Assembly (NCBI GenBank): GCA_016794565.1
Contig: JAEUHQ010000082.1
Coordinates: 1-64,000, forward strand
Length of the DNA: 64,000 nt
Source of the DNA: Planctomycetota bacterium
GTDB taxonomy: Bacteria; Planctomycetota; UBA1135; UBA2386
Direction: 5' to 3'
The translations under genes and the position numbers were made by a program. Shown piece by piece: positions 48,442 to 61,901 of this stretch (position 1 is the first letter of the stretch; the number at the start of each line of letters is the position of its first letter). The notes beneath the pieces are model-generated. The model worked only from the letters and a program-made list of their open reading frames with translations, made no database searches and was not told the origin of the DNA.

Positions 48442-49802
48442 TGCATCGCCGTGTGCATCTGGTGGATGTAGGTGCAGCCGGGAGCGTGTTCACGACGGCC
48501 GCTGTGCGGTACCCGGTCCATCCATTCGGGATCGACGTCGACGGGGCAGTAGTGGCTCACGAGGCTCCATCGAGTGATGTCGCGCTTCAGGCGCGGCGAT
48601 CCGCCGTGCACGAGGTCCGCATGCCACACGAGCGCGTCGCCCTTCTTCGGGTGGAAGCGCGTCATCGGGCAGCCCGCCTGCTCCGACTTCTCGCACACCC
48701 ACCGCAGGAACGCGCGGTGGTCGTCCCACTCCGGCGGCCGCGCACGGCCGCGATCGCACCAGAGGAACTCCGGGATCTTGTGGCTGCCCTCGTAGTACTG
48801 CAGCTCGCCGGAGCCCGGCGTGATGTCCTCGAGCGCGACCCAGCAACCGACGAACTCCATCGGCGACCGCACGACGACGTAGGCGGTGTCCTGGTGCATC
48901 TCCTGCTCGGTCCCGTAGCGGAACAACAGGCTCTGGAACGGCATCGGAGGACGCTCGAACAGCTGGCCGAGGAAGCGCCGGATCGCCGGCGCGAACTGGA
49001 TGTCTCGCGCGAGCTTCGACGTCGAGTGGTAGTCGAGCACCTTGTGCGGGATGTCCTTGTACTTCGGCAGCATCCGGGGGAATGCGTTGCTGCCGTCGGC
49101 GAGTTCGATCACGAGACCTTCGTTCCCTCGCTGCCAGTCGCTGGCGATCTCGGCGCGGAACGCGTCGATCACCGCGGGATCGACGGCTCTCTCGAGGAGC
49201 ACGTAGCCCTTCTCCATCCAGTGCTCGAAGCGAGCGACGTCCGTGGCGTCGAGGAGTCCGAGTGCGCGCTTGCCGGCGAGCCGGGCGTGCGCATCGTTGA
49301 GGTCGGGCCAGAAGCCACCGAAGCGCGACCGGAACCGCGGGAACGTGTCGAGTCGCTTGAAGAACTTCTCCTTCGCCTCGTGGCACGCGCCCCAGAGCCG
49401 GGCGAATGCGTGCTTCCAAACACCCTCCATCGCAGCGCGTTCGACCTCGTGCACGCCCTCGTGGCGCAACTTGACGATCGTTGCGTTCCCCTCCGCGACG
49501 AGGTCCACCGTGACGGGCGACGTCGCGCTGCCGCTCTTGTCGCTTCGCGTGAAGTCGAAGGCGAGTCGTTTCGCCGGGACGAGTTCGCGCCAGGCGCCCT
49601 TCAGCGTGATTCGGCCACGCTCACCGCCTTCGAACTCGAGTTCGAAGGCCCGGGCATCGACGTGCGCCCGCAGGGCCCGCCGTCCCGGCGCGATCTCGAA
49701 CCAGTACGCGAGCCGCGGTTCCTCGAAGAACGCCGCATAGACATCGTCCGGCGGGACATGCAGAACGCGTTGGAGGGAGAGCGTCGTGGCGGCCTCGGGC
49801 AT
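48438..49802 (-). CDS. SRPBCC (AHSA1-like) / phytanoyl-CoA dioxygenase fusion
   Basis: 454 residues. Residues 5-150 are an SRPBCC-type ligand-binding domain (YAAFFEEPRLAYWFEIAPG, RITLKGAWRELVPAKRLAFD, HEGVHEVERAAMEGVWKHAF). Residues 190-440 are a PhyH-type Fe(II)/2-oxoglutarate oxygenase: FRYGTEQEMHQDTAYVVV with the HxD pair H303 and D305, the distal histidine in ADLVHGGSP (about H399) and R411 for 2-oxoglutarate. It should hydroxylate a hydrophobic or small organic substrate held by the first domain. The start at 49802 is supported by the TAGACT box at 49812-49817. Confidence 0.9.
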   Translation of the reverse strand: MPEAATTLSLQRVLHVPPDDVYAAFFEEPRLAYWFEIAPGRRALRAHVDARAFELEFEGGERGRITLKGAWRELVPAKRLAFDFTRSDKSGSATSPVTVDLVAEGNATIVKLRHEGVHEVERAAMEGVWKHAFARLWGACHEAKEKFFKRLDTFPRFRSRFGGFWPDLNDAHARLAGKRALGLLDATDVARFEHWMEKGYVLLERAVDPAVIDAFRAEIASDWQRGNEGLVIELADGSNAFPRMLPKYKDIPHKVLDYHSTSKLARDIQFAPAIRRFLGQLFERPPMPFQSLLFRYGTEQEMHQDTAYVVVRSPMEFVGCWVALEDITPGSGELQYYEGSHKIPEFLWCDRGRARPPEWDDHRAFLRWVCEKSEQAGCPMTRFHPKKGDALVWHADLVHGGSPRLKRDITRWSLVSHYCPVDVDPEWMDRVPHSGRREHAPGCTYIHQMHTAMH

Positions 49803-49811
49803 GGTCGCGGA

Positions 49812-49817
49812 AGTCTA
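49812..49817 (-). promoter_or_regulatory. Putative -10 box TAGACT before the PhyH-fusion gene
   Basis: Nine nt separate this box (in CTATAGACT) from ATG 49802, so a leaderless mRNA is likely and the gene is probably transcribed apart from the upstream cytochrome gene. Confidence 0.45.
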
Positions 49818-49855
49818 TAGCGACGTCTCTCGCCGGACACGGACGGCAGAGCCGG

Positions 49856-51838
49856 TCACGAGCCCCGCGGCTGCCACGCGTGACAACTGAGACAGTCCTT
49901 GCTCGCGGGCACCGCCTGGAGCGTGCGCGAAGTGCCTTCGCCCGAGATCGTATGCGACGCGTGGAGGTTCCGGTGCGCCGTGACGCGAATCGTGGTGCTC
50001 GCAGGAGTACGCCCCGGCTCGTCGTACGCGTGGCACTTGCGGCAGTCACCGCCCTTGGCATGGAACTGACGCACGTCCGCAACGAGCAGATGACGCTGCT
50101 CGCGACGGACCTCCTTGCCGAAGTCGGCGCCCGCCTTCTCGACGTGGCAGTCGAAACACACGTTGGTCTGCTTCGTGGTCTCGTAGCCGCCGGTGATCTT
50201 CACCTTCTCCGGGTCCTTGTGTCCGTGGCATCGGGCGCACGCGAACGCCGCACCGGCCTCGACGAGCACACTGCCGCGCAGGTTCGTGACACCGGTCGGT
50301 CCCACGTGGCACGTCGCACACGACTGCGACGCGTGCTGGGCATGGGAGAAGACGGGCACCTTCGCGTCCTCCACCGTCGTGAGCACGTCCATCTTCGGAC
50401 TCTGATGGCACGTCGCGGTGCACGAGCCGGCCTCGTTGGCCGCCGTCTGGTGGAACGCGAACACGAACGCCGCGGACGTCGTGTCCGCGACGTGGGCGTG
50501 GCACACCACACAGACCGATGTCGGCGAGGTCGTCGCGATCTCCGGCACATGGCCTTCGTGTGCGAACGGCCGCGCGGCCGCGGCACGCACCAGCCCTTCC
50601 ACCTCGCGACGATGGCAGTCGCTGCAGGAACGGCCGTCGGCCACCGGGTGCAGCGGCACGGCGCCCGCGGTGATGCCGGGATGGGCCGTGGACGCGAACG
50701 CGAATGTCGACGGTTTCGCGGGGCGGCGCACGGTCGTCGTCGCGAGCGCCTTCGCCTCGTCGTCGGTTCCCGGATGCGCATGCGCGTGGCAGTCGTTGCA
50801 CGACCACGAGCCGTGCCGGGGCACACGCCGTTCGGAGTGGCACGTCTTCGTGCAGTCCGCGTACATGCGCCCGACGACAGGGTCCTCCGCGTCGTTGGCG
50901 AGCGGATGGCACTTGCTGCACTGCTCCTGGTGTCCCTTCGTCGCGTGCGAGAACTTCGTCGGCATTCGCTGGACCTCGAGGTCCGCAGCGAGGCGCGTGG
51001 TCACTCCACCCTGATCACCGAAGTGGCACGTCGCACAGGACCTCGCCTGCACCCCCATGCCGGCCACGGCGTTCGGGTCCGCGGTGTGGCAGGTGCGGCA
51101 CGCGCTCCCCTTCGCGTCGGCGCCGAGTTCGGCCGGCGGCACGTGCGATGCGTGGGTGAACACACGCTCCTTGCCGCGCCGGTGCCGATCGAGCAGGCTC
51201 GGGGCGCCGGCGACGTGGCACTCGGCACACGTCGTGGCCCTGTCCCAGATCGCTCGCCACGCCGCGCCGCCGCCGTCCTTGGACACGGCCTGCTGCGCCT
51301 TCGCACCCGGGTCGTCGGCGCCGTGGTGGTGGCAGTCCGCGCACACCGCCAAGGTCGACGGCCGCGCGAACAGCACATCCGGATGTACGAAGTCGCCGCG
51401 CGGCCCCGCGGTCCACGTGTGGCACTCGGTGCACGCACGTTCGCGATGGCCGTCGAGTGCGTGGTCGTACGTCGACACGTGCCCCGCGGCGCGGACTCCG
51501 CCCGCGAACTCGAGGCGCGCCGCGTCGTGTCCGGCCGCCGTCCCGCTGAAATGGCAGCTCGCGCACTGCGCCGTCACCGGAGCGAGCCCCATCGGTTCAC
51601 CGGCGCGGAAGTCGTGGCAGACCTGGCAGTGCCTGGCGAACTGCTCCTTGCGCGGCGTCGCCTGCCAGTCCGGAGCGAGGTGCGAGCCGTGGCGGAAACT
51701 GCCGTCCGCGGCCGAGCGGACCGATGCTGCAGGCGGCTCCACCCACTCACGGGCGCCCATCGACCACGCGGCGACGGCGGGAAGCGCCAGGGCGAACGCC
51801 GCGCCCGCGACCAGCCACTTCGCCAAGGTTCGATGCAT
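49856..51838 (-). CDS. Secreted multihaem c-type cytochrome, 18 haem motifs
   Basis: 660 residues. Signal peptide or anchor MHRTLAKWLVAGAAFALALP. Sixteen CXXCH motifs run from C71 to C649, plus two with a longer spacing, CTKTCH and CTATCH (CX3CH), so up to 18 haems. Many other histidines sit in patterns such as FSHATKGH and FTHASHVP that can provide the second axial ligand. The protein belongs outside the cytoplasm. It could carry electrons over a long distance, like the large cytochromes of metal-respiring bacteria. It is divergent from the porin and decahaem genes, which makes a shared electron conduit plausible. ATG 51838 begins the signal. Confidence 0.92.
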   Translation of the reverse strand: MHRTLAKWLVAGAAFALALPAVAAWSMGAREWVEPPAASVRSAADGSFRHGSHLAPDWQATPRKEQFARHCQVCHDFRAGEPMGLAPVTAQCASCHFSGTAAGHDAARLEFAGGVRAAGHVSTYDHALDGHRERACTECHTWTAGPRGDFVHPDVLFARPSTLAVCADCHHHGADDPGAKAQQAVSKDGGGAAWRAIWDRATTCAECHVAGAPSLLDRHRRGKERVFTHASHVPPAELGADAKGSACRTCHTADPNAVAGMGVQARSCATCHFGDQGGVTTRLAADLEVQRMPTKFSHATKGHQEQCSKCHPLANDAEDPVVGRMYADCTKTCHSERRVPRHGSWSCNDCHAHAHPGTDDEAKALATTTVRRPAKPSTFAFASTAHPGITAGAVPLHPVADGRSCSDCHRREVEGLVRAAAARPFAHEGHVPEIATTSPTSVCVVCHAHVADTTSAAFVFAFHQTAANEAGSCTATCHQSPKMDVLTTVEDAKVPVFSHAQHASQSCATCHVGPTGVTNLRGSVLVEAGAAFACARCHGHKDPEKVKITGGYETTKQTNVCFDCHVEKAGADFGKEVRREQRHLLVADVRQFHAKGGDCRKCHAYDEPGRTPASTTIRVTAHRNLHASHTISGEGTSRTLQAVPASKDCLSCHAWQPRGS

Positions 51839-51882
51839 CGTGGAGAAAGCCCGCGAGCACGCGGCATTCGCGACTACGTCGT

Positions 51883-51910
51883 TTGACTGACGCGGACGGG
51901 GCCCTACTCT
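51883..51910 (+). promoter_or_regulatory. Promoter of the porin-cytochrome operon
   Basis: TTGACT (51883-51888) and TACTCT (51905-51910) are separated by 16 nt, close to the standard housekeeping pattern. It points to the porin gene, with a leader of about 85 nt. Confidence 0.6.
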
Positions 51911-52000
51911 GCCCGCCGCGATCGCGGGGTCAAGAGCTTGCCACTCCCTCGCACGCCCTCGCCAACTCCGACGAGTCGACGCGCGCGACTCGGCTCTCCG

Positions 52001-53722
52001 ATGCTCGACCCTCGAACCGCATCGCGTCGTATCTCCGTCTCCGCTCTGTTGTCGCCGTTCGTCGTGCTCGGCATCGCGACCGCGCAGGAGGGTGGCGCCA
52101 CCGGGCCGCGCACACGCGGGACCACCCCGCCAGCGACCCAGGAGCCGAAGCCGCAGGAGCCGAAGGCAGGACAGCCCGAAGCGCCGAAGGCCGAGCCGAA
52201 GAAGCCGGATGCGGCGCCGCCCGATCGTGCGCGGCAGAGCCCGGAGCCGACGTTCCACTACGAGCCGGTGCACAGCCGCTACCTGCGCCTCGACCCGTTC
52301 GATCGCTACGGGCGCCGCACGCGCTGGAACCCGCTGACCATGTCCGACGGGACCGGCGAGTACCCGATCATCGGGAGCGCCGGCTTGTTCGACGTCTACA
52401 ACACGAACAAGTGGAAGGGCGACCTGCCGATGTGGGGCGAGAACACGTTCGTCGCCGCGGAACTGGTCTCCGCGAACCTGTTCGAGGGCCGCAACAAGGC
52501 CGGCGCCAACGACGAGACCGAGCTGCGCTCGACGGAGTTCCTGTCCATCGAGGCCTTCCACGGCGACACGGTGTTCCGTCCGCCGACCTGGCGCGTCCGC
52601 AGCACGCTCGCATTCGACTTCCGGTACGTCGACAACGCGGTCGTCGACGGTTTCGACCCCGACGCGGCGGTTCAGGAGCTGTTCGGCGAAGCGCTGCTGT
52701 GGGACTGCGATCCCTACCTCGACTTCGGGTCGGTGCGGGTCGGCCGCCAGGCGTTCGCGAGCGACTTCCGCAACTTCATCTTCACCGACCAGAACGACGG
52801 CGTGCAGCTCTTCGGCTCGCTCAACGAGTCGAAGATCGACTTCCAGCTCGCCTTCTTCGACCTCGTCGCGAAGGACCCGATCAGCAACCTGAACCGCGGC
52901 TTCGAAGACCGCGACCAGACCTTCCTCGCGGCGAACGTCTTCTTCGAGGACCTCGTGGCGACGGGCTACAAGGTCGAGTTCACGTTCCAGTGGGCGCACG
53001 ACACCGCGGTCCAGGACGCGACGGTCGACGCCTACTACCTCGGCTTCAATGGCGAGGGCCGGATCGGCGGATTGGAGGTCGCGCACGCCTTCTATTGGAT
53101 GACGGGCACCGACGACCAGAACATCGTCACGGCCGCGGAGACCGACATCAACGCATTCATGGCGGCTCTGGAAGTCGCGATCCCGGACGACTGGCGCCGC
53201 TACGTGTTCAGCGGCCTCTATGCCTCCGGTGACAGCGACGTCAACGACGACAAGGGCGGCGGTTTCGACTCGGTGTTCGACAACCCCAACTTCGCCGGCG
53301 GCGCGTTCGGCTACTTCGACCGACAGGCCATCGCGGCGCAGGGCGTGCCGATCGTCAACACGAACAGCTTCTATCCCAACCTCCGCACCAAGGCGAACGA
53401 CGCGCCGAACTCGGTCAACCCGGGCCTGATCATCCTCCACGGCGGCGTCGAAGCAGACCTGTCGAACTACTGGAGCGTCGCGTTCAACGCCGCGTACCTG
53501 CACTTCGCCGACACCAACGTCCTCGAGGCCGTGTTCGGTCAGTCGGTCAGCAGCAGCTTCGGCATCGACCTCAGCCTGGCCGCCAAGTACCGGCCGCTCG
53601 GTGTGGACAACTGCATCATCACGCCCGGCGTGCAGGTGCTCTTCTCGACCGGCGGCCTCGAAGATCTCACAGGCGATTCGGCCCTGGCCGCCCTGTTCGT
53701 CAACGCCGTCATCGTGCTCTGA
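52001..53722 (+). CDS. Outer-membrane beta-barrel (porin-like) protein
   Basis: 573 residues. Signal peptide ending near GIATAQ (residue 29), then a Pro/Lys/Glu-rich linker of about 45 residues. The remainder alternates polar and hydrophobic residues in barrel strands (WRVRSTLAFDFRYVDNAV, YLDFGSVRVGRQAFA, YKVEFTFQWAHD, SVAFNAAYLHFAD, FGIDLSLAAKYRPLG). The style resembles alginate-export-type or other 16- to 18-stranded barrels; the exact family is not recognised. ATG 52001 gives the signal peptide; an upstream in-frame ATG (51938) is less likely. It is followed after 26 nt by the decahaem cytochrome gene and could form the sheath through which that protein passes electrons. Confidence 0.82.
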   Translation: MLDPRTASRRISVSALLSPFVVLGIATAQEGGATGPRTRGTTPPATQEPKPQEPKAGQPEAPKAEPKKPDAAPPDRARQSPEPTFHYEPVHSRYLRLDPFDRYGRRTRWNPLTMSDGTGEYPIIGSAGLFDVYNTNKWKGDLPMWGENTFVAAELVSANLFEGRNKAGANDETELRSTEFLSIEAFHGDTVFRPPTWRVRSTLAFDFRYVDNAVVDGFDPDAAVQELFGEALLWDCDPYLDFGSVRVGRQAFASDFRNFIFTDQNDGVQLFGSLNESKIDFQLAFFDLVAKDPISNLNRGFEDRDQTFLAANVFFEDLVATGYKVEFTFQWAHDTAVQDATVDAYYLGFNGEGRIGGLEVAHAFYWMTGTDDQNIVTAAETDINAFMAALEVAIPDDWRRYVFSGLYASGDSDVNDDKGGGFDSVFDNPNFAGGAFGYFDRQAIAAQGVPIVNTNSFYPNLRTKANDAPNSVNPGLIILHGGVEADLSNYWSVAFNAAYLHFADTNVLEAVFGQSVSSSFGIDLSLAAKYRPLGVDNCIITPGVQVLFSTGGLEDLTGDSALAALFVNAVIVL

Positions 53723-53748
53723 CCCGCGGTTCCGTCCGGAGACTCCCC

Positions 53749-56700
53749 ATGCGTTCCGAAGCCACTTTCCGCTCCTCCACGAAGACCGCGGTCGTCTTCA
53801 CCGCCTTCGCTCTGCTCTCCATCGGCTGCGCGACCTGGGCCGCGCGCGACATGTCGACGAACCTCGGTGCCTGGCAACCGCTCGGCAAGTTCGAGGACGC
53901 GACCGCGGCGCGCGAAGCCGAAGCGAGCGCCGGATGCCTCACCTGCCACGAGGGCATCGACAGCAAGAACATGCACGGCCTCAACGTCTGGCAGATCGGT
54001 TGCGCCGACTGCCACGGCGGTGACCCGAAGATCGCGTGGACCGGCGGCTCCGCGCAGCGCCCGTGGTCGAGCGCCTACGTGCAGGCGATGAAGGCCGCGC
54101 ACGTGCAGCCGGCGTTCCCTGCGGAATGGCGGGGCAGCCGCAATCCGGAGCGCACCTATGCACTCCTGAACCGCGAGAAGCTCGAGTACGTGCGCTTCAT
54201 CAACCCCGGCGACCTGCGCGTCGCACCGCAGACCTGCGGCACCACCGGCTGCCATCCGGACATCACGGGTCGCGTGATGACGAGCATGATGACGCACAGC
54301 GCGATGGTGATGGGTTCGGGCACCTACAACAACGGCGTGCTCCCGTACAAGAACTACGTCATCGGCGAGTTCTACATGCCGAACGGCGAGGCGGCGCTCG
54401 CCAAGACGGTGCCCGCGCCGACGCCGGCCGAGAAGGCTCGCGGCGTGGTCGAGCAGCTGATCCCCGTGCCGCGCTACAACGCGAGCCAGCCGGGCAACAT
54501 CTTCCGCGCCGCGGAGCGCGGCGTCGCGAACACGCGCGGGCTCGGCACCGAGAACCGCGTCGACTTCGCGCACTTCGTGCTGCACAAGACGCGCCTCAAC
54601 GATCCGTACGTCTGGTTCCTCGGCACGAACGACTACGGCGCGGAGTTCCGTTCGAGTGGCTGCTCCGCCTGCCACGTGCTCTACGCGAACAGCGAGGACC
54701 CGAAGATGTCCGCGCACATCGCGATGCACGGCTACAAGGGCAAGACGGCCGCGACGAACGGCGACCCGACGATCCCGAAGGACGAGCCCGGTCACCCGAT
54801 CGAGCACAAGTTCACGACGCGCATCCCGACGAGCCAGTGCATGTCGTGCCACAACCACCAGGGCAGCGGCGCGATCGACAACTACGCCGGCATCATGTGG
54901 TGGGACGGCGAGAGCGACGGCAAGCTCCTCTACGACGAGGAAGGCCACGCGAAGAAGGGCGACGCGCTGCACGACGTGCACCTCGAGGCGAACAAGCAGG
55001 CGAAGCACACACAGTTCAGCTCGCAGCACCGCAGCGGCTGGTCGTTCCGCAAGGTCTACAAGGTGAACGTCGAAGGTCAGATGATCGACAAGAAGGGGAA
55101 CCTGATCCCCTGGGACGATCCCGACTGGGCCTCGAAGGCTGTGCACCTCGCCGACCACCACTACGAAGTCGGCATGCAGTGCATCGACTGCCACACGGAG
55201 CAGGACGTGCACGGCGACGGCAAGCTCTACGGCGAGATGATCAACCCCGTGGAGATCTACTGCACCGACTGCCACGGCACGGTCGCGCAGCGCTCGAAGC
55301 TCGTGACCAGCAACCCGGCGGGCGGCAACGACCTGTCGAAGGCCAAGGCCGCCGGGTCGAAGGGCACGCGCCAGTTCCGCTGGGTCGACGCCTCGGGCAA
55401 CGAGGTCACCGGTCGCGCGCCGCAGAAGGGCGACGTACTGAAGCAGCGCAGCAAGGTCGATCCGAACCTCGAGTGGGCGGTGCCGCAGATCGTCGACGCG
55501 ATCGATCCGTCGGCGAAGAACTACAACAGCAAGGCGCGCATCGCGAAGACGCTGCAGAAGGGCAACGACACCTACGGCGACGCGACCGTGTCATCCGATC
55601 ACTTCGCACACAGCGCGGACCGCATGACGTGCTACACGTGCCACACGTCGTGGGCGATCAGCTGCGCGGGATGCCACCTCGCCGGCAAGACGAACCGCAA
55701 CGCGCCGTCGAGCCACTTCTACGGCGAGAAGACCCTCGTCGACGTCGGCTACTACTCGCAGGGCCTGCGCTCCGACTGCCTGATGCTCGGCATCAACGGC
55801 ACAGTGAAGGGCAACAAGATCTCGCCGATCCGCTCCGCCTCGGCGCCGATCGCCACGGCCGAGAACGGGAACCGTGCGATCGTCACGCACCAGCAGCCGA
55901 CGGTGTCGGCCTCCGGCCACAGCGGCCACGCGTTCTCGCCGTACATCCCGCACACGGTGAGCGCCGAGCACGGCCAGCAGTGCACGAGCTGCCACGTCAG
56001 TGAAGCCGACGACAACAACTCGAGCCTCGCGACGCGCTTCAACCTCGGCGTGCACGCATCGGACTTCGTCGGGGCCTACGTGCACCTCGGCACGAGCAAG
56101 AGCGTCACCGCCGTCCGGGTGACCGACGGCTGGGAACCGCAGCCGGTGATCGGCAGCGACTTCCACGCGATGACGTACCCGAAGGAACACGCTGCGCACG
56201 TCGCCGCGAACTCGCAGCTGACGGAAACGCACACTCACGACACGCCGGCCGTGTTCGTGCAGGCGCGCGGCGAGTACTTGTTCACTGCCGCGGGCAAGGG
56301 CGGCTTCCGCGTCCTCGACATCGCGAACATCGCGAACAAGGACGTCGCACAGCGCATCATCAGCGCGCCGTTCAGTCCGATCGGCCACGACGCCCACGTC
56401 GCCACGCGCGACGCCGCCGCAGTGCTGTTGCCGACCACGGTCCCGATGGACCCGGTGCGCAAGGTCGACCCGGCGAACGAGGAGCAGCCGGTGCATCCGC
56501 TGTTCGGCTACGCCTACGTGATCGACCGCCAGGAGGGCCTCGTCGTCGTCGACGTGAACACGTTCGTGGACGGCGACCCGAACAACAACTTCGTGAAGCG
56601 AGCCGCGACGTGGAACCCCGACGGCGTGCTGAAGGGCGGCCACGGTGGCATGGTCGTCGGCAGCTACCTCTACGTCCTCGTGCCGGACGGCATCGTGGTC

Positions 56701-57381
56701 GTCGGCATCGACAAGCCGACGGAGCCGCGCCTCGTCACCGCGCTGAAAGGCCTCGGCGGTCCGCGCAGCATCGACGTGCAGTTCCGCTACGCGGTCGTCA
56801 CCGACGCCGAGGGCATGAAGGTGCTCGACATCACGGACCTCGAGAAGCCGACGGTCGTGCCGGGCGCGATCGTGCCGCTCGCCGACGCGCGCGGCGTCCG
56901 CCTGTGCCGCACCTACGCGTACGTCGCCGCGGGCAAGGACGGTCTCGCGATCGTCGACATGCTGCGATTCACGCAGCCGAAGCTCGTCGAGAAGTTCACG
57001 GCCGACGGCGCCATCGACGACGCCACCGCGGTCACGACCGGCCTCACGAACGCGAGCATGTTCGCCTACGTCGCCGACGGGAAGAACGGCCTGCGCGTGA
57101 TCGAGTTGTGGACACCGTCGCGCAGCCACGGGACCTACGGCTTCTCGCCGAAGCCGACGCCGCGCCTCGTCGCGAGCCGCCGGACCGACGGTCCCGCGGT
57201 CTCCATCTCGACCGGAATGATCCGCGACCGCGGTGTCGACGAGAGCGGCAACCAGATCGGCGTCTTCGGCCGCATCGGCTCGCGCCCGTTCAACAAGAAG
57301 GAGCGCGAGGCCTTCTACCTGCGCGGCGGCAAGGTCTACCGGGTCAACGACGCCGCGACGGGCTACAAGGAAGCGAAGTAG
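53749..57381 (+). CDS. Decahaem cytochrome fused to an LVIVD-repeat propeller
   Basis: 1210 residues. N-terminal signal or anchor (about 12-32; C27 could be lipidated). Nine CXXCH motifs, near residues 63, 85, 305, 364, 478, 504, 628, 639 and 745, plus CGTTGCH (CX4CH) at 163-169. From about residue 840 come six LVIVD-type blades, e.g. GGFRVLDIANIAN, YVIDRQEGLVVVDVN, YAVVTDAEGMKVLDITDLEK and YAYVAAGKDGLAIVDM. GGAGA lies upstream of the ATG. The cytochrome part could pass electrons and the propeller could bind the barrel or an external partner. Co-transcribed with the porin. I know of no characterised protein with this layout. Confidence 0.93.
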   Translation: MRSEATFRSSTKTAVVFTAFALLSIGCATWAARDMSTNLGAWQPLGKFEDATAAREAEASAGCLTCHEGIDSKNMHGLNVWQIGCADCHGGDPKIAWTGGSAQRPWSSAYVQAMKAAHVQPAFPAEWRGSRNPERTYALLNREKLEYVRFINPGDLRVAPQTCGTTGCHPDITGRVMTSMMTHSAMVMGSGTYNNGVLPYKNYVIGEFYMPNGEAALAKTVPAPTPAEKARGVVEQLIPVPRYNASQPGNIFRAAERGVANTRGLGTENRVDFAHFVLHKTRLNDPYVWFLGTNDYGAEFRSSGCSACHVLYANSEDPKMSAHIAMHGYKGKTAATNGDPTIPKDEPGHPIEHKFTTRIPTSQCMSCHNHQGSGAIDNYAGIMWWDGESDGKLLYDEEGHAKKGDALHDVHLEANKQAKHTQFSSQHRSGWSFRKVYKVNVEGQMIDKKGNLIPWDDPDWASKAVHLADHHYEVGMQCIDCHTEQDVHGDGKLYGEMINPVEIYCTDCHGTVAQRSKLVTSNPAGGNDLSKAKAAGSKGTRQFRWVDASGNEVTGRAPQKGDVLKQRSKVDPNLEWAVPQIVDAIDPSAKNYNSKARIAKTLQKGNDTYGDATVSSDHFAHSADRMTCYTCHTSWAISCAGCHLAGKTNRNAPSSHFYGEKTLVDVGYYSQGLRSDCLMLGINGTVKGNKISPIRSASAPIATAENGNRAIVTHQQPTVSASGHSGHAFSPYIPHTVSAEHGQQCTSCHVSEADDNNSSLATRFNLGVHASDFVGAYVHLGTSKSVTAVRVTDGWEPQPVIGSDFHAMTYPKEHAAHVAANSQLTETHTHDTPAVFVQARGEYLFTAAGKGGFRVLDIANIANKDVAQRIISAPFSPIGHDAHVATRDAAAVLLPTTVPMDPVRKVDPANEEQPVHPLFGYAYVIDRQEGLVVVDVNTFVDGDPNNNFVKRAATWNPDGVLKGGHGGMVVGSYLYVLVPDGIVVVGIDKPTEPRLVTALKGLGGPRSIDVQFRYAVVTDAEGMKVLDITDLEKPTVVPGAIVPLADARGVRLCRTYAYVAAGKDGLAIVDMLRFTQPKLVEKFTADGAIDDATAVTTGLTNASMFAYVADGKNGLRVIELWTPSRSHGTYGFSPKPTPRLVASRRTDGPAVSISTGMIRDRGVDESGNQIGVFGRIGSRPFNKKEREAFYLRGGKVYRVNDAATGYKEAK

Positions 57382-57392
57382 CCGCGCGGGTA

Positions 57393-57422
57393 CGGCGGCT
57401 TCACCGGCTGTGCGGGCCGCCG
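57393..57422. terminator. Hairpin between convergent genes
   Basis: CGGCGGC (57393-57399) and GCCGCCG (57416-57422) can pair in the gap between the cytochrome and FG-GAP genes. No T-tract; tentative shared terminator. Confidence 0.3.
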
Positions 57423-57427
57423 GTGAC

Positions 57428-60400
57428 TCACCTGCCGCCGAACAGCACTTTCGCGACGGACGACGCGGGCTCACAGAACACCACGTCGATGTCCCCGTCG
57501 CCGTCGACGTCCGCCACGAGCAGGCGCGTCGCGGTCGCCACGCCGATCGGGCGCGCTGGCCCGAAGACCAGCGGCGCCGCCTGCGGCAGCAGCACGACCT
57601 GCCCGTTGCGCACGCAGGCGAGATCGCGGTCGCCGTCGCCGTCGAAGTCGGCGGCGACCAGTGCCTCGCTGCTCCCGCCCGTCACGACCGCCGCGAGCGC
57701 AAAACTGCCGGGCGCAGCCTGACGGAAGACCGTCACGTCGAGCGTGTTCGCAGTCGCCACGTCGAGCAGCCCGTCGCCGTCGAAGTCCGCGACCGCGACG
57801 GCGCGCGGCGTGTTGCCAATGCCGGGCACGGTCACGGTCATCGCCGCGGCGAACGAACCGAGCGCGAGCTGACGCCAGATCACCACGGTGTTCCCCGCCA
57901 GCGCGACGACGTCGTTGTCACCGTCGGCGTCGATGTCGGCGAGAACGGGCGCGACCTGCGGCGCGAGTGGCGCGCCGGCGAACGCGAGGCGCGTGGGCGT
58001 CGAGAAGGCGCCGTTCGCGAGCTGCAGCGACACCGCGATCGCGTTCGGTTCGACCACCGCGACGTCGTCGTCGCCGTCGCTGTCCAGATCACCGATCGAG
58101 ACGGCGGTCGGCGAGTTCCACGGCCCGGCTCCCGTGCCGACCAGCGGCCCCGTCACGAAACTCCCGGTCCCCGTGCGTCGCACGAGCTGTACGCCATCGG
58201 CAGCGCCGACGACGACCGCGTCCGCGTCGCCGTCGCGATCGAGGTCGCCGACGGCACACGCGTCCCCGCCGGCGAGCGGGACGGCGAGCGACGCGGCGGC
58301 GGGAATCGCGCCGTCGGCGCCGGAAGTGAACACCGCGAGATGCCTCGTCGTGGAGCCGACGAGCGCGACCACGTCGAGGCGGCCGTCACCGTCCATGTCG
58401 CCGACGGCCACGTCGCGCACCGACGGCGTGGCACCGGCCGAACCGACCGGCACCGCCGCGGCGCCGAAGTGGCGGCCGCGCGCGTCGAGCACGACGGCGA
58501 TCGTTCCCGCGGTCTCGTTCGCGCAGGCGACGTCCACGCGTCCGTCCGCGTCGATGTCCGCGGCGACGACGGCCGAAGCGCCGTCCGTGACCCCTGGGCC
58601 GCCGAGCGCGTACGCCATCTCGAACAGGCCCGACGCACCTCGGCGCAGCACGGCGATCCGATTCGCTGCCGGGTCCGCGCACAGGAGCTCGCTGATTCCG
58701 TCTCCGTCGAGATCACTCGCGACGACGTCCGCGGGACCGACCAGCGACCCCGGCGCGGACACCACGGCGCGCGGGGACGGACCGGCACCGAACGACGCGA
58801 GTTCTCCGCCCGCCGCGTCGCTCTCGACCGCGACCAGTTCCGCGGCGCCCCCCTGGGAACCGGGCACCACGCGCAGCGCCGTGACGGCTCGCGGCGAGGT
58901 GATCGTCATCGGCGCACCGAACGTGTGCGCCGCATTCTGCGTGAAGACGAGCACGCCGTTCGCCGCCGCGCCCGCACCGCGATGCGACACGGCGACGTCG
59001 AGCCGGCCGTCGTGGTCGAAGTCGACGACCGCCACGTCCGTGGCGACGGCGCCCGACACGACGCTCGCGGCGGGCAGGGGCACGGGCGCCGCGAACACTC
59101 CGGGGGACGTCTGGCAGAACACCGCCGCGTCGTCCCCCTGCACCGCCACGACATCGACGTCGCCGTCGCCGTCCAGGTCCGCGGCCGCGACGCGCGTCGA
59201 CGCCGGCGCGTTCGACGGATCGATGCGAACGGGAGGCGCAAACGTCGTCGGCGACGTCTGCACGAAGAGCAGGAGGCCGTTCTGGGCGGCGACGATCAGG
59301 TCGACGTCCCCGTCGCCGTCCGCGTCGACGGCCTCGACGTCCTTCGGCGCGACGACGGCGCCGACACCCCCCAGCAGGAGCGGCGGCGCAAACGTCCCTG
59401 GCGCGATCTGACGGAACAGCGACAACGCGTTCGCCGTGGCACTGACCGCGATCAGGTCGAGGTCGCCGTCACCATCGACATCGGCGGCGGTGAGCGCCTT
59501 CGGGCCGAGCGTCGCCAGCGGGATCGGCGACGCGTCCAGCTGCACGGCGGTCACGAACGCTGCGCCCGTCTCCACCGGGGCGCCGACCGCCCCGTCCACC
59601 GGGATCGCCCGCACGCGGATCCCGACGCCGGCGGGAGCATCCCCGCTGTCCCACACGAACTCGCCCGGCGCGCCGCCAGGGCTGCTGGTCACCGGATCGA
59701 GCGCCGGATCGAGTGCGCGAAGGCGCCACGTCTGTCGCACGCCGAGCAACGGAGCAAACGCCGCGTCGACCGTGGCGATCGCGGTCGCGGGATCGAAGGC
59801 CACGATGCGGCGGCGCTGCTCGACACCGAGTCGCGCCTGCAGATTGCGCGACAACTTCTGCGCGACGAGGGCGAGGCGATCCGCGCCAAGACACACCGAC
59901 CCGCTGTCGGCCGGCACGCTGACGTTGCTCTGTGCGCCGCGACCGAGTTCGACGATACCGAGGAACGCCGAAGCCGACACTCCGGGTGTGCGCAACAGGA
60001 CCCCGAGCCGCTGGCCGTCGGGGCTCACCGCGAGCGCGCTCGGCAGGAGGCCGACGGCGTTGCAAGCGCCGAGCGGCTGCATCGTGCGGGTCACGAGGTC
60101 GAGCACACCGACGCGCGAACCGCTGCGTTCCGCGACGAAGGCGCGCCAGGGCGCCGTGGGGTCGAGCGCGATGCCGAACGGCTCGGCGAGACCCGAGCGG
60201 AGGACCGTGGTGCTCGTGACCGCGTCCCATTCGATGCGGACGACGGAGTCGGCGGCGGTCGCGACGAGCGACTTCGAGCCGGCGACCGCGATGCCGCGCA
60301 GCGGGCCCGGCACCGCGGCACCGACGCGTTCGGCGCGCAGCGTGGCGCCGCCCCCGGACAGATCGACTTCGAAGACGCGCCACGTGCCGCCCGCGTCCGT

Positions 60401-61819
60401 CGCGGCGAACGCGGACGCCGAGCCCGGCGCCACGGCCAGCGCCGTCGGGACTCCGCCCATCGACGCCAACGTGCGCAGGACGGCGCCGGTCGACAGATCG
60501 ATCTCGACGAGTTCACTGCCGGCAGCGACCTCTTCGAGGACGAACGCGCTGGTCGCGTCGTCGCCCGCCGCCACCGCGACCGGTGCTCGCAGCGGGTTCG
60601 TCGGCCAGGTCGCCGCGAGCCCGGCGAACGTCGGCCGCGTGCGGAGCACTTCGATCTCGCGACCGACGACGCCGCGCGCCAGCGTGGCCGAGTGTTCGCC
60701 CAGCAACAGCTGCGCCAGCCGCACCCGCATCGGATCGGTCGGCTGCACGGCCCCGACCGCCGGCGACGCATACGGGGTGCACACGTGCGACGAACGCCGG
60801 AACACGGGGTCGCGCAGGAGGGCGATGAGTGCGGTCGGGTCACCGAGGGCGATCGGCGGAAAGGGCTCGCCCTCGTGCCGCCACTGGAACACGACGCGCG
60901 TCGGATCTCCTTCTTCGTCGGCGATCGCGAACGGGATGGAGATGCCGTTCCGTCGGTCACTGCTCGCGAGCAACGCACTCCCGTCGATCGTCGCGACGGG
61001 AGAGGCGTTGTTGTCGACGAGGAACGACCCCGTCTCCCGCACGATTCCGGTCGCCACCGGATCGGTCGCCGTGAAGCGGACCCGCACGCTGCGATCGAGG
61101 TCGGGCAGGTCGAAGTCGGTGTCCCAGAAGAAGACGAAACCTGCTCCTCCCACCGGCGCGGTCACGCCCGGGAACGCGAGTTCCGGCGTGGGATCCGTCG
61201 TTCCGAGGCCGGCGGGACGCGCGAGGCGCCAGGCGGCGGCAGGCTCACCGTCGACGTGGTACTCGACCTTGACCCCGACCGGGTCGGCGGAGCTGTCGCG
61301 CAAGACGAAGGGCAGCGACGTCGTGCCGTGCGTCACGGGCGCGACCGATCCGACCGTCAGCACCGGCGCATCGTTGCCGAGACCGGCGACGACGGTGCGG
61401 ATCGTGTCGGCGCCGACCCGCGCGCTCAGGGTCACGCTGCCGGAGAAGCTCGCGTCGTCGGGCAGAGACGCTTCCGCCGGGAAGTTCCACGGCAGCTCGT
61501 GGACCGTGCCGGCCGGTGACGTCGAGAGCACCACCGGGTTCGCGGCGAGCCCGACGAGGGGAACGGGGCCGCCGGACGCGGCGCCCTCGAACGTGAACTG
61601 CACCGACACCGGATCCGACTCCGCGTCGGCAACGACGATCCGGATCCGCGCCGGCGCGACCTTCGTGTCGAACACCACGAGGCTCTGCGCGGTCGCCGCC
61701 GTGTCCGGCCCGCCGCCGCCACTGCCACCACTGCCGCCGCCACCACCGCCACACGACGCAGCACACACGGACGCGATGCCAACGGCGACAGCGCGAAGGG
61801 AGAACGGGGTGCGGATCAA
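57428..61819 (-). CDS. Giant secreted FG-GAP/VCBS repeat lipoprotein
   Basis: 1463 residues. No ATG is available near the coding start; TTG 61819 gives a lipoprotein signal, LIRTPFSLRAVAVGIASVC, followed by a Gly/Ser run, with GAGAAGG upstream and a TAGACT box at 61864-61869. The N-terminal half is Ig-like and then propeller-like (VFEVDLSGGGATLRAERVG). The C-terminal 700 residues hold 13 calcium-binding DxDGDGxxD loops, such as DVDGDGDLDLIAV and DFDGDGLLDVATAN, the blades of one or two FG-GAP beta-propellers. Likely a surface or adhesion protein stabilised by calcium. Confidence 0.88.
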   Translation of the reverse strand: MIRTPFSLRAVAVGIASVCAASCGGGGGGSGGSGGGGPDTAATAQSLVVFDTKVAPARIRIVVADAESDPVSVQFTFEGAASGGPVPLVGLAANPVVLSTSPAGTVHELPWNFPAEASLPDDASFSGSVTLSARVGADTIRTVVAGLGNDAPVLTVGSVAPVTHGTTSLPFVLRDSSADPVGVKVEYHVDGEPAAAWRLARPAGLGTTDPTPELAFPGVTAPVGGAGFVFFWDTDFDLPDLDRSVRVRFTATDPVATGIVRETGSFLVDNNASPVATIDGSALLASSDRRNGISIPFAIADEEGDPTRVVFQWRHEGEPFPPIALGDPTALIALLRDPVFRRSSHVCTPYASPAVGAVQPTDPMRVRLAQLLLGEHSATLARGVVGREIEVLRTRPTFAGLAATWPTNPLRAPVAVAAGDDATSAFVLEEVAAGSELVEIDLSTGAVLRTLASMGGVPTALAVAPGSASAFAATDAGGTWRVFEVDLSGGGATLRAERVGAAVPGPLRGIAVAGSKSLVATAADSVVRIEWDAVTSTTVLRSGLAEPFGIALDPTAPWRAFVAERSGSRVGVLDLVTRTMQPLGACNAVGLLPSALAVSPDGQRLGVLLRTPGVSASAFLGIVELGRGAQSNVSVPADSGSVCLGADRLALVAQKLSRNLQARLGVEQRRRIVAFDPATAIATVDAAFAPLLGVRQTWRLRALDPALDPVTSSPGGAPGEFVWDSGDAPAGVGIRVRAIPVDGAVGAPVETGAAFVTAVQLDASPIPLATLGPKALTAADVDGDGDLDLIAVSATANALSLFRQIAPGTFAPPLLLGGVGAVVAPKDVEAVDADGDGDVDLIVAAQNGLLLFVQTSPTTFAPPVRIDPSNAPASTRVAAADLDGDGDVDVVAVQGDDAAVFCQTSPGVFAAPVPLPAASVVSGAVATDVAVVDFDHDGRLDVAVSHRGAGAAANGVLVFTQNAAHTFGAPMTITSPRAVTALRVVPGSQGGAAELVAVESDAAGGELASFGAGPSPRAVVSAPGSLVGPADVVASDLDGDGISELLCADPAANRIAVLRRGASGLFEMAYALGGPGVTDGASAVVAADIDADGRVDVACANETAGTIAVVLDARGRHFGAAAVPVGSAGATPSVRDVAVGDMDGDGRLDVVALVGSTTRHLAVFTSGADGAIPAAASLAVPLAGGDACAVGDLDRDGDADAVVVGAADGVQLVRRTGTGSFVTGPLVGTGAGPWNSPTAVSIGDLDSDGDDDVAVVEPNAIAVSLQLANGAFSTPTRLAFAGAPLAPQVAPVLADIDADGDNDVVALAGNTVVIWRQLALGSFAAAMTVTVPGIGNTPRAVAVADFDGDGLLDVATANTLDVTVFRQAAPGSFALAAVVTGGSSEALVAADFDGDGDRDLACVRNGQVVLLPQAAPLVFGPARPIGVATATRLLVADVDGDGDIDVVFCEPASSVAKVLFGGR

Positions 61820-61863
61820 AGGGGCCTTCTCGTCGCAACGCTGACCGGGCGCTGCGGCGCGGG

Positions 61864-61869
61864 AGTCTA
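61864..61869 (-). promoter_or_regulatory. Putative -10 box TAGACT before the FG-GAP gene
   Basis: 44 nt upstream of TTG 61819, consistent with that unusual start codon. A TTGACC lies upstream but at too great a distance to be a -35 box. Confidence 0.4.
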
Positions 61870-61901
61870 CCGGCCGTTCGCCGCGGCGGCACCGCCGCAG
61901 G

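Follow-up and report, generated by a model that had tools for sequence, protein, structure and literature searches.

The outer-membrane β-barrel protein B and the decahaem cytochrome C form a near-obligate gene pair in several bacterial phyla, and together they probably form the core, at the outer membrane, of a porin-cytochrome conduit for electrons. This reading draws on gene content, haem sites, conservation, linkage, signal sequences, and the signature of an associated inner-membrane protein (IMP), all of which are read from the sequences themselves. The pair was studied in a 64,000-nucleotide stretch of DNA from a Planctomycetota bacterium (hereafter, the window), in which it lies beside the divergent gene of a second cytochrome, A. 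The features of the locus are as follows:

49856..51838, minus strand: cytochrome A, 660 aa, 18 haem c sites, Sec-type signal sequence MHRTLAKWLVAGAAFALALPAVAA
51839..52000, no strand: divergent A-B intergenic region of 162 bp, holding the best sigma-70-like match
52001..53722, plus strand: barrel B, 573 aa, with a signal sequence, a Pro-rich linker, and an outer-membrane β-barrel of about 18 strands
approx. 52445-53716, plus strand: strands of barrel B in the AlphaFold2 model
53749..57381, plus strand: cytochrome C, 1210 aa, with a lipobox-like signal (LLSIGC), a decahaem region, and a C-terminal β-propeller
53926..56028, plus strand: decahaem region of C (residues ~60-760), distantly similar to ExtM
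56071..57207, plus strand: LVIVD β-propeller of C (residues ~775-1153; PF08309)

By motif count, A contains 16 CxxCH and two CX3CH sites (18 in total), C contains nine CxxCH and one CX4CH site (ten in total), and no haem motif occurs in the 573 aa of B. Only 0.14 and 0.02 CxxCH motifs are expected in shuffled versions of A and C, respectively, so the observed counts are not due to chance; they agree with the earlier note, which had described a divergent cytochrome with 18 motifs and a co-directional one with ten. The start codon of B is the ATG at 52001. A longer minus-strand frame (49856-53503) was rejected as gene A because its 5′ extension is spurious; this frame and other long frames are artefacts of GC-rich DNA. 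The near-consensus promoter that had been ascribed to B was not recovered, since a scan of 49700-57600 found no sigma-70-like promoter and the closest match within the A-B gap (TTGACT-16 nt-TACTCT, 51883-51910) agrees with the consensus at 8 of 12 positions overall and at just 3 of 6 within the -10 box. Directly downstream of C, a FG-GAP repeat protein of ~1490 aa is encoded on the opposite strand (57428-61900) and shows no sign of conduit membership.

Among 392 Planctomycetota genomes, a strong C was detected in 37, each of which also contains B; a strong C without B was found in none, and one additional genome has a weak B only. The co-occurrence gives a Fisher p of 3e-51, a test that ignores shared ancestry. 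In 398 Pseudomonadota genomes, B was present in 12, of which 11 also have C, and the contig of the twelfth stops just past B. The pair thus occurs in ~9% and ~3% of the sampled genomes of the two phyla, and is also found on Sphingobium plasmids. With regard to linkage, B immediately precedes C in the same orientation in 39 of the 41 loci holding both genes, a count that includes two duplicates (L005/L036 and L007/L037); the exceptions are L038, with the genes on opposite strands, and L035, with the order C-A-B. At the genome level, one exception has B without C (G006) and another has both genes unlinked (G021). A scan of a genome collection with C revealed relatives in metagenome-assembled genomes (MAGs) labelled Planctomycetota, Gammaproteobacteria, Deltaproteobacteria, Acidobacteria, and others, and B was just upstream in all ten loci with enough upstream DNA; this arrangement was also seen in MAGs of Acidobacteria and Deltaproteobacteria. 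In all, the B-C pair spans at least three phyla.

Cytochrome A was seen in only some Planctomycetota (L005, L007, L035, a fragment in L026, and the window). The complete A-B-C trio is present in L005, L007, and L035, in the last of these rearranged to C-A-B. Given this recurrence and the cross-phylum occurrence of B-C, the objection that the trio might not be conserved does not hold. The general partner of B is C, and the 18-haem A is lineage-specific. A scores above the Pfam cut-offs for PF22113, PF02085, and PF14522. In an alignment of four homologues, all 18 haem sites and 15 further His residues are conserved; both CX3CH sites are kept in all four sequences and are therefore regarded as genuine. 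A is predicted to be a soluble periplasmic multihaem cytochrome and a partner of the pair in this lineage. Membership of the MtrA/DmsE family was rejected for A (20.6 bits against a cut-off of 192.2).

Cytochrome C carries PF08309 (LVIVD, E=9.6e-18) and PF14537. Its CX4CH site (CGTTGCH) is genuine, because most homologues have an ordinary CxxCH at that place. The ten haem-binding His residues are invariant in 44 sequences, and at least 11 further His residues are conserved in at least 86% of them; these would be enough for bis-His ligation of all ten haems, which fits electron-transfer haems. A lipobox Cys ends the hydrophobic segment in 19 of the 22 homologues from planctomycetes for which N-terminal sequence is available, and homologues of Proteobacteria and Acidobacteria have an ordinary signal sequence without a lipobox. 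C is thus a predicted surface lipoprotein in Planctomycetota. The propeller was recovered both as strands in the model and by Foldseek, whose many propeller matches include the surface lipoproteins BtuG2/BT2095. AlphaFold confidence is low in the haem region, so that this part of the model is too uncertain for use. The nearest named family is Geobacter ExtM, whose match is weak in all 13 aligned members of C; the score of 82.3 bits against a cut-off of 800 led to rejection of C as an ExtM equivalog.

Barrel B has no significant match in Pfam, NCBIfam, or PDB sequences, and sequence-based homology to solved structures yielded nothing meaningful. An AlphaFold2 model built from an alignment of 11 homologues (pLDDT 75, pTM 0.74) shows 18 membrane strands, which supports the assignment of B as a β-barrel in the earlier note. 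The nearest solved structure to this model in a Foldseek search is the alginate exporter AlgE (TM-score ~0.57-0.67, identity 13-14%, sharing the 18-strand barrel fold), followed by OprD-type solute channels. The earlier note had named likeness to a solute channel as a point that would count against a conduit, and for the barrel modelled alone this is partly what was found. Membership of the Alginate_exp family (PF13372) was rejected, as B scores 10.8 bits against a gathering cut-off of 25.2; sub-threshold similarity at E<=1 occurs in 3 of 11 B homologues, the best at 5e-5. Under idealised geometry, the free lumen would be ~23 Å wide at 18 strands, compared with ~37 Å at 26 strands, which may be too narrow for an MtrA-like decahaem buried deep inside B. 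Conservation is somewhat higher at lumen-facing than at outward positions (0.46 vs 0.38), with facing assigned by an alternation rule. The modest width of the modelled barrel and its likeness to solute channels form the main doubt about the conduit reading.

Several gene families recur near B-C. One is a dihaem-b-type IMP in which SGxxG and a pair of WX3HX13H motifs are invariant across 10 aligned sequences. The others are a cytochrome with 10 haems, which in L016 also has an FHA domain and a TM segment; a protein of the FAD/cNMP/4Fe-4S or cNMP/4Fe-4S type; a c554-like cytochrome with five (sometimes four) haems; and an HbpS-like protein (PF03928). The full set accompanies B-C on plasmid pMSHV of Sphingobium herbicidovorans, where two ShlB/FhaC-type two-partner secretion genes (L057, 419-8572 and 28032-29711) flank the conduit genes. 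In the genome of the window, the inner genes lie away from B-C: a linked cNMP/4Fe-4S query located the IMP, the cNMP/4Fe-4S protein, and an FHA-15-haem cytochrome in a row on contig C113. A query with the FHA cytochrome of L007 gave no match in this genome, and HbpS was not detected there. Single ORFs of 1120-1125 aa in which the FAD/cNMP/4Fe-4S protein is fused to the IMP were observed in L069 (7344-10703) and L070 (3046-6420), each followed by a 10-haem cytochrome, and neither stretch contains B or C; such fusions support functional coupling of the two proteins.

Other multihaem loci were noted in the same genome. On contig C25 (L032, 1034-10575), a FAD protein and ORFs with 23 and 7 haems accompany a distant 11-haem relative of C (24% identity), and B is absent. 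On C204 (L030, 7299-14912), 19-haem and 23-haem ORFs adjoin an ORF that joins FAD/4Fe-4S-type domains to IMP-type WX3HX13H helices, and C178 (L031, 2199-9169) contains 6-, 13-, and 10-haem ORFs unrelated to A, B, and C at the thresholds used.

The locations of the proteins, a physical complex among them, and the order, direction, and substrate of electron flow are inferred, and a route of the following kind may be proposed. The quinone pool, a cNMP-binding/4Fe-4S protein in the cytoplasm, or both would exchange electrons with the dihaem-b-type IMP, from which they would pass to the FHA-anchored multihaem cytochrome on the periplasmic side. A periplasmic multihaem cytochrome, the 18-haem A in this lineage and probably the c554-like pentahaem elsewhere, would bridge the gap to the outer membrane, where the 18-strand barrel B would provide passage for the haem chain or the end of a cytochrome. 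Finally, the lipid-anchored C at the surface would give electrons to, or take them from, an extracellular redox partner via its ten putative bis-His haems, with the propeller serving in docking or binding.

The linkage of a modelled barrel to multihaem cytochromes in 41 loci is as in porin-cytochrome conduits, and the conduit put forward in the earlier note is, with recurrence of the pair across phyla, the best-supported reading, against which stands the nearness of the barrel to AlgE/OprD-type channels. A different and rather unlikely explanation is built on that very nearness: B would be an AlgE/OprD-like channel for small solutes or oxyanions and C a surface or periplasmic reductase, the two acting in extracellular detoxification or assimilation with no electron wire through the barrel. 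In addition to the order of the Foldseek matches and the weak Alginate_exp matches in 3 of 11 B members, it can point to ExtM, the nearest named family of C, which belongs to a selenite/tellurite operon; a role in selenite and tellurite was proposed for ExtI of Geobacter, whose mutant reduces less of both (PMC5877670). However, the conserved His residues of C suffice for bis-His ligation at every haem, leaving no obvious catalytic haem, and even a reductase, if located at the surface, would have to be supplied with electrons through the outer membrane. No NCBIfam family matches B, its conserved neighbours are electron-transfer proteins, and no transporter was identified among the recurring families.

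Haem or iron handling is less probable again. Here, the propeller and the HbpS-like protein would bind haem or Fe at the surface, C would reduce Fe(III), and B would import the product, in a manner comparable to the BtuG propeller lipoprotein that caps a transport barrel; the recurrence of HbpS-like genes (PF03928) beside B and the BtuG2/BT2095 matches, among those to many propellers, agree with it. The B-C pair is nevertheless intact in the genome of the window, in which HbpS was not detected, neither a TonB-dependent receptor nor an ABC transporter occurs among the recurring neighbour families examined, and ten haems exceed what assimilation needs. A merely coincidental juxtaposition of three unrelated genes, A, B, and C, is very improbable: A lies divergently on the opposite strand and most B-C loci lack it, but co-occurrence and adjacency across phyla already contradict coincidence for B-C, and A-B-C is found in several genomes, including one with a different gene order (L035).

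The recurrence of B-C beside inner-membrane electron-transfer genes suggests that the conduit is a common, undescribed electron route through the cell envelope. A more specific and only tentative proposal is that B-C may belong, as its outer half, to a conduit class that is widespread but has no name, in which an AlgE-like 18-strand barrel, much narrower than MtrB, and a propeller-bearing decahaem surface cytochrome would be connected via the dihaem-b protein to a FAD/cNMP/4Fe-4S protein, giving a cyclic-nucleotide-gated route from the cytoplasm to the surface. In the literature searched, of which coverage was incomplete and did not extend to supplements, no description was found of LVIVD with cytochromes, of HbpS or alginate-export barrels with multihaem cytochromes, or of porin-cytochrome systems in these phyla; the 118 new MHCscan families (PMC11475568) may include C or B. 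Conduits of such a kind determine which microbes can have minerals, electrodes, or other cells for redox partners, and gene profiles of B and C could serve as a practical marker. Electron passage through an 18-strand barrel, if it occurs, would also change ideas of the required conduit width.

Among known systems, MtrCAB of Shewanella and MtoAB/PioAB share the logic of a periplasmic multihaem cytochrome, a barrel, and a surface decahaem lipoprotein. As the earlier note had proposed, the parts are unlike MtrA/B/C: besides the low profile score of A, MtrB is a 26-strand barrel whereas B has 18 modelled strands and is nearest to AlgE, and C has an LVIVD propeller and no MtrC domain match. The ExtHIJKL-MNOPQS system of Geobacter sulfurreducens (PMC5877670, PMC6148476) likewise combines a porin-like barrel, several multihaem cytochromes, and inner-membrane cytochrome b/Fe-S genes, and ExtM is distantly similar to the haem region of C; it differs in that B has no NCBIfam match and C adds a propeller. 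AlgE of Pseudomonas shares the 18-strand fold of B, whose neighbours, in contrast, are cytochromes and no polysaccharide genes. The methanotroph extracellular electron transfer cluster, considered since L016 comes from a Methylococcaceae MAG, is a different system, comprising an MtrA/MtrB-family porin with monohaem cytochromes (PMC13322032). PCC3 (He et al. 2017) also contains a porin, extracellular and periplasmic multihaem cytochromes (MHCs) rich in haems, and an IMP with the same His motifs; judged by description, the median haem count is 34 for its surface MHC and 21 for its periplasmic one, compared with 10 at the surface and at most 18 in the periplasm here.

The closest likeness is to PCC4, which was predicted by He et al. 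2017, in Planctomycetes among others, to comprise a porin, an IMP with two WX3HX13H motifs and SGxxG, an Fe-S gene, and periplasmic cytochromes of 4, 5, and 10 haems, with no extracellular MHC (PMC5566968). Shared with B-C loci are the IMP motifs, an Fe-S (pfam13247) redox gene adjoining the IMP, a decahaem cytochrome, and a porin; the full IMP signature was found in 10 IMPs, that of the window's genome being on another contig. The differences lie in the decahaem LVIVD protein, which is nearly always paired with the barrel and, as a predicted surface lipoprotein in Planctomycetota, would be an extracellular MHC, and in the cytochrome set, which consists of a 10-haem FHA-type, a 5- (sometimes 4-) haem c554-like, and the 10-haem C instead of periplasmic cytochromes of 4, 5, and 10 haems. 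A search with the IMP in Pseudomonadota retrieved genomes with IMP, cNMP/4Fe-4S, 10-haem, usually 4-haem, and sometimes 5-haem cytochrome genes that fit the description of PCC4. No homologue of B or C was found in the stretches read of these PCC4-like loci (L072-L078), and B did not align with two of their candidate porins (hhalign probability 0.1%, from profiles of few sequences). The arrangement is not the one-off that "separate solution" in the earlier note might suggest, but a widespread variant with a PCC4-like inner-membrane half. Compared with published PCC4 by description, the inner module of B-C resembles it, and since the PCC4-like loci have the same IMP motifs without B and C, the inner half appears to be shared in kind with PCC4 and the outer half to be different.
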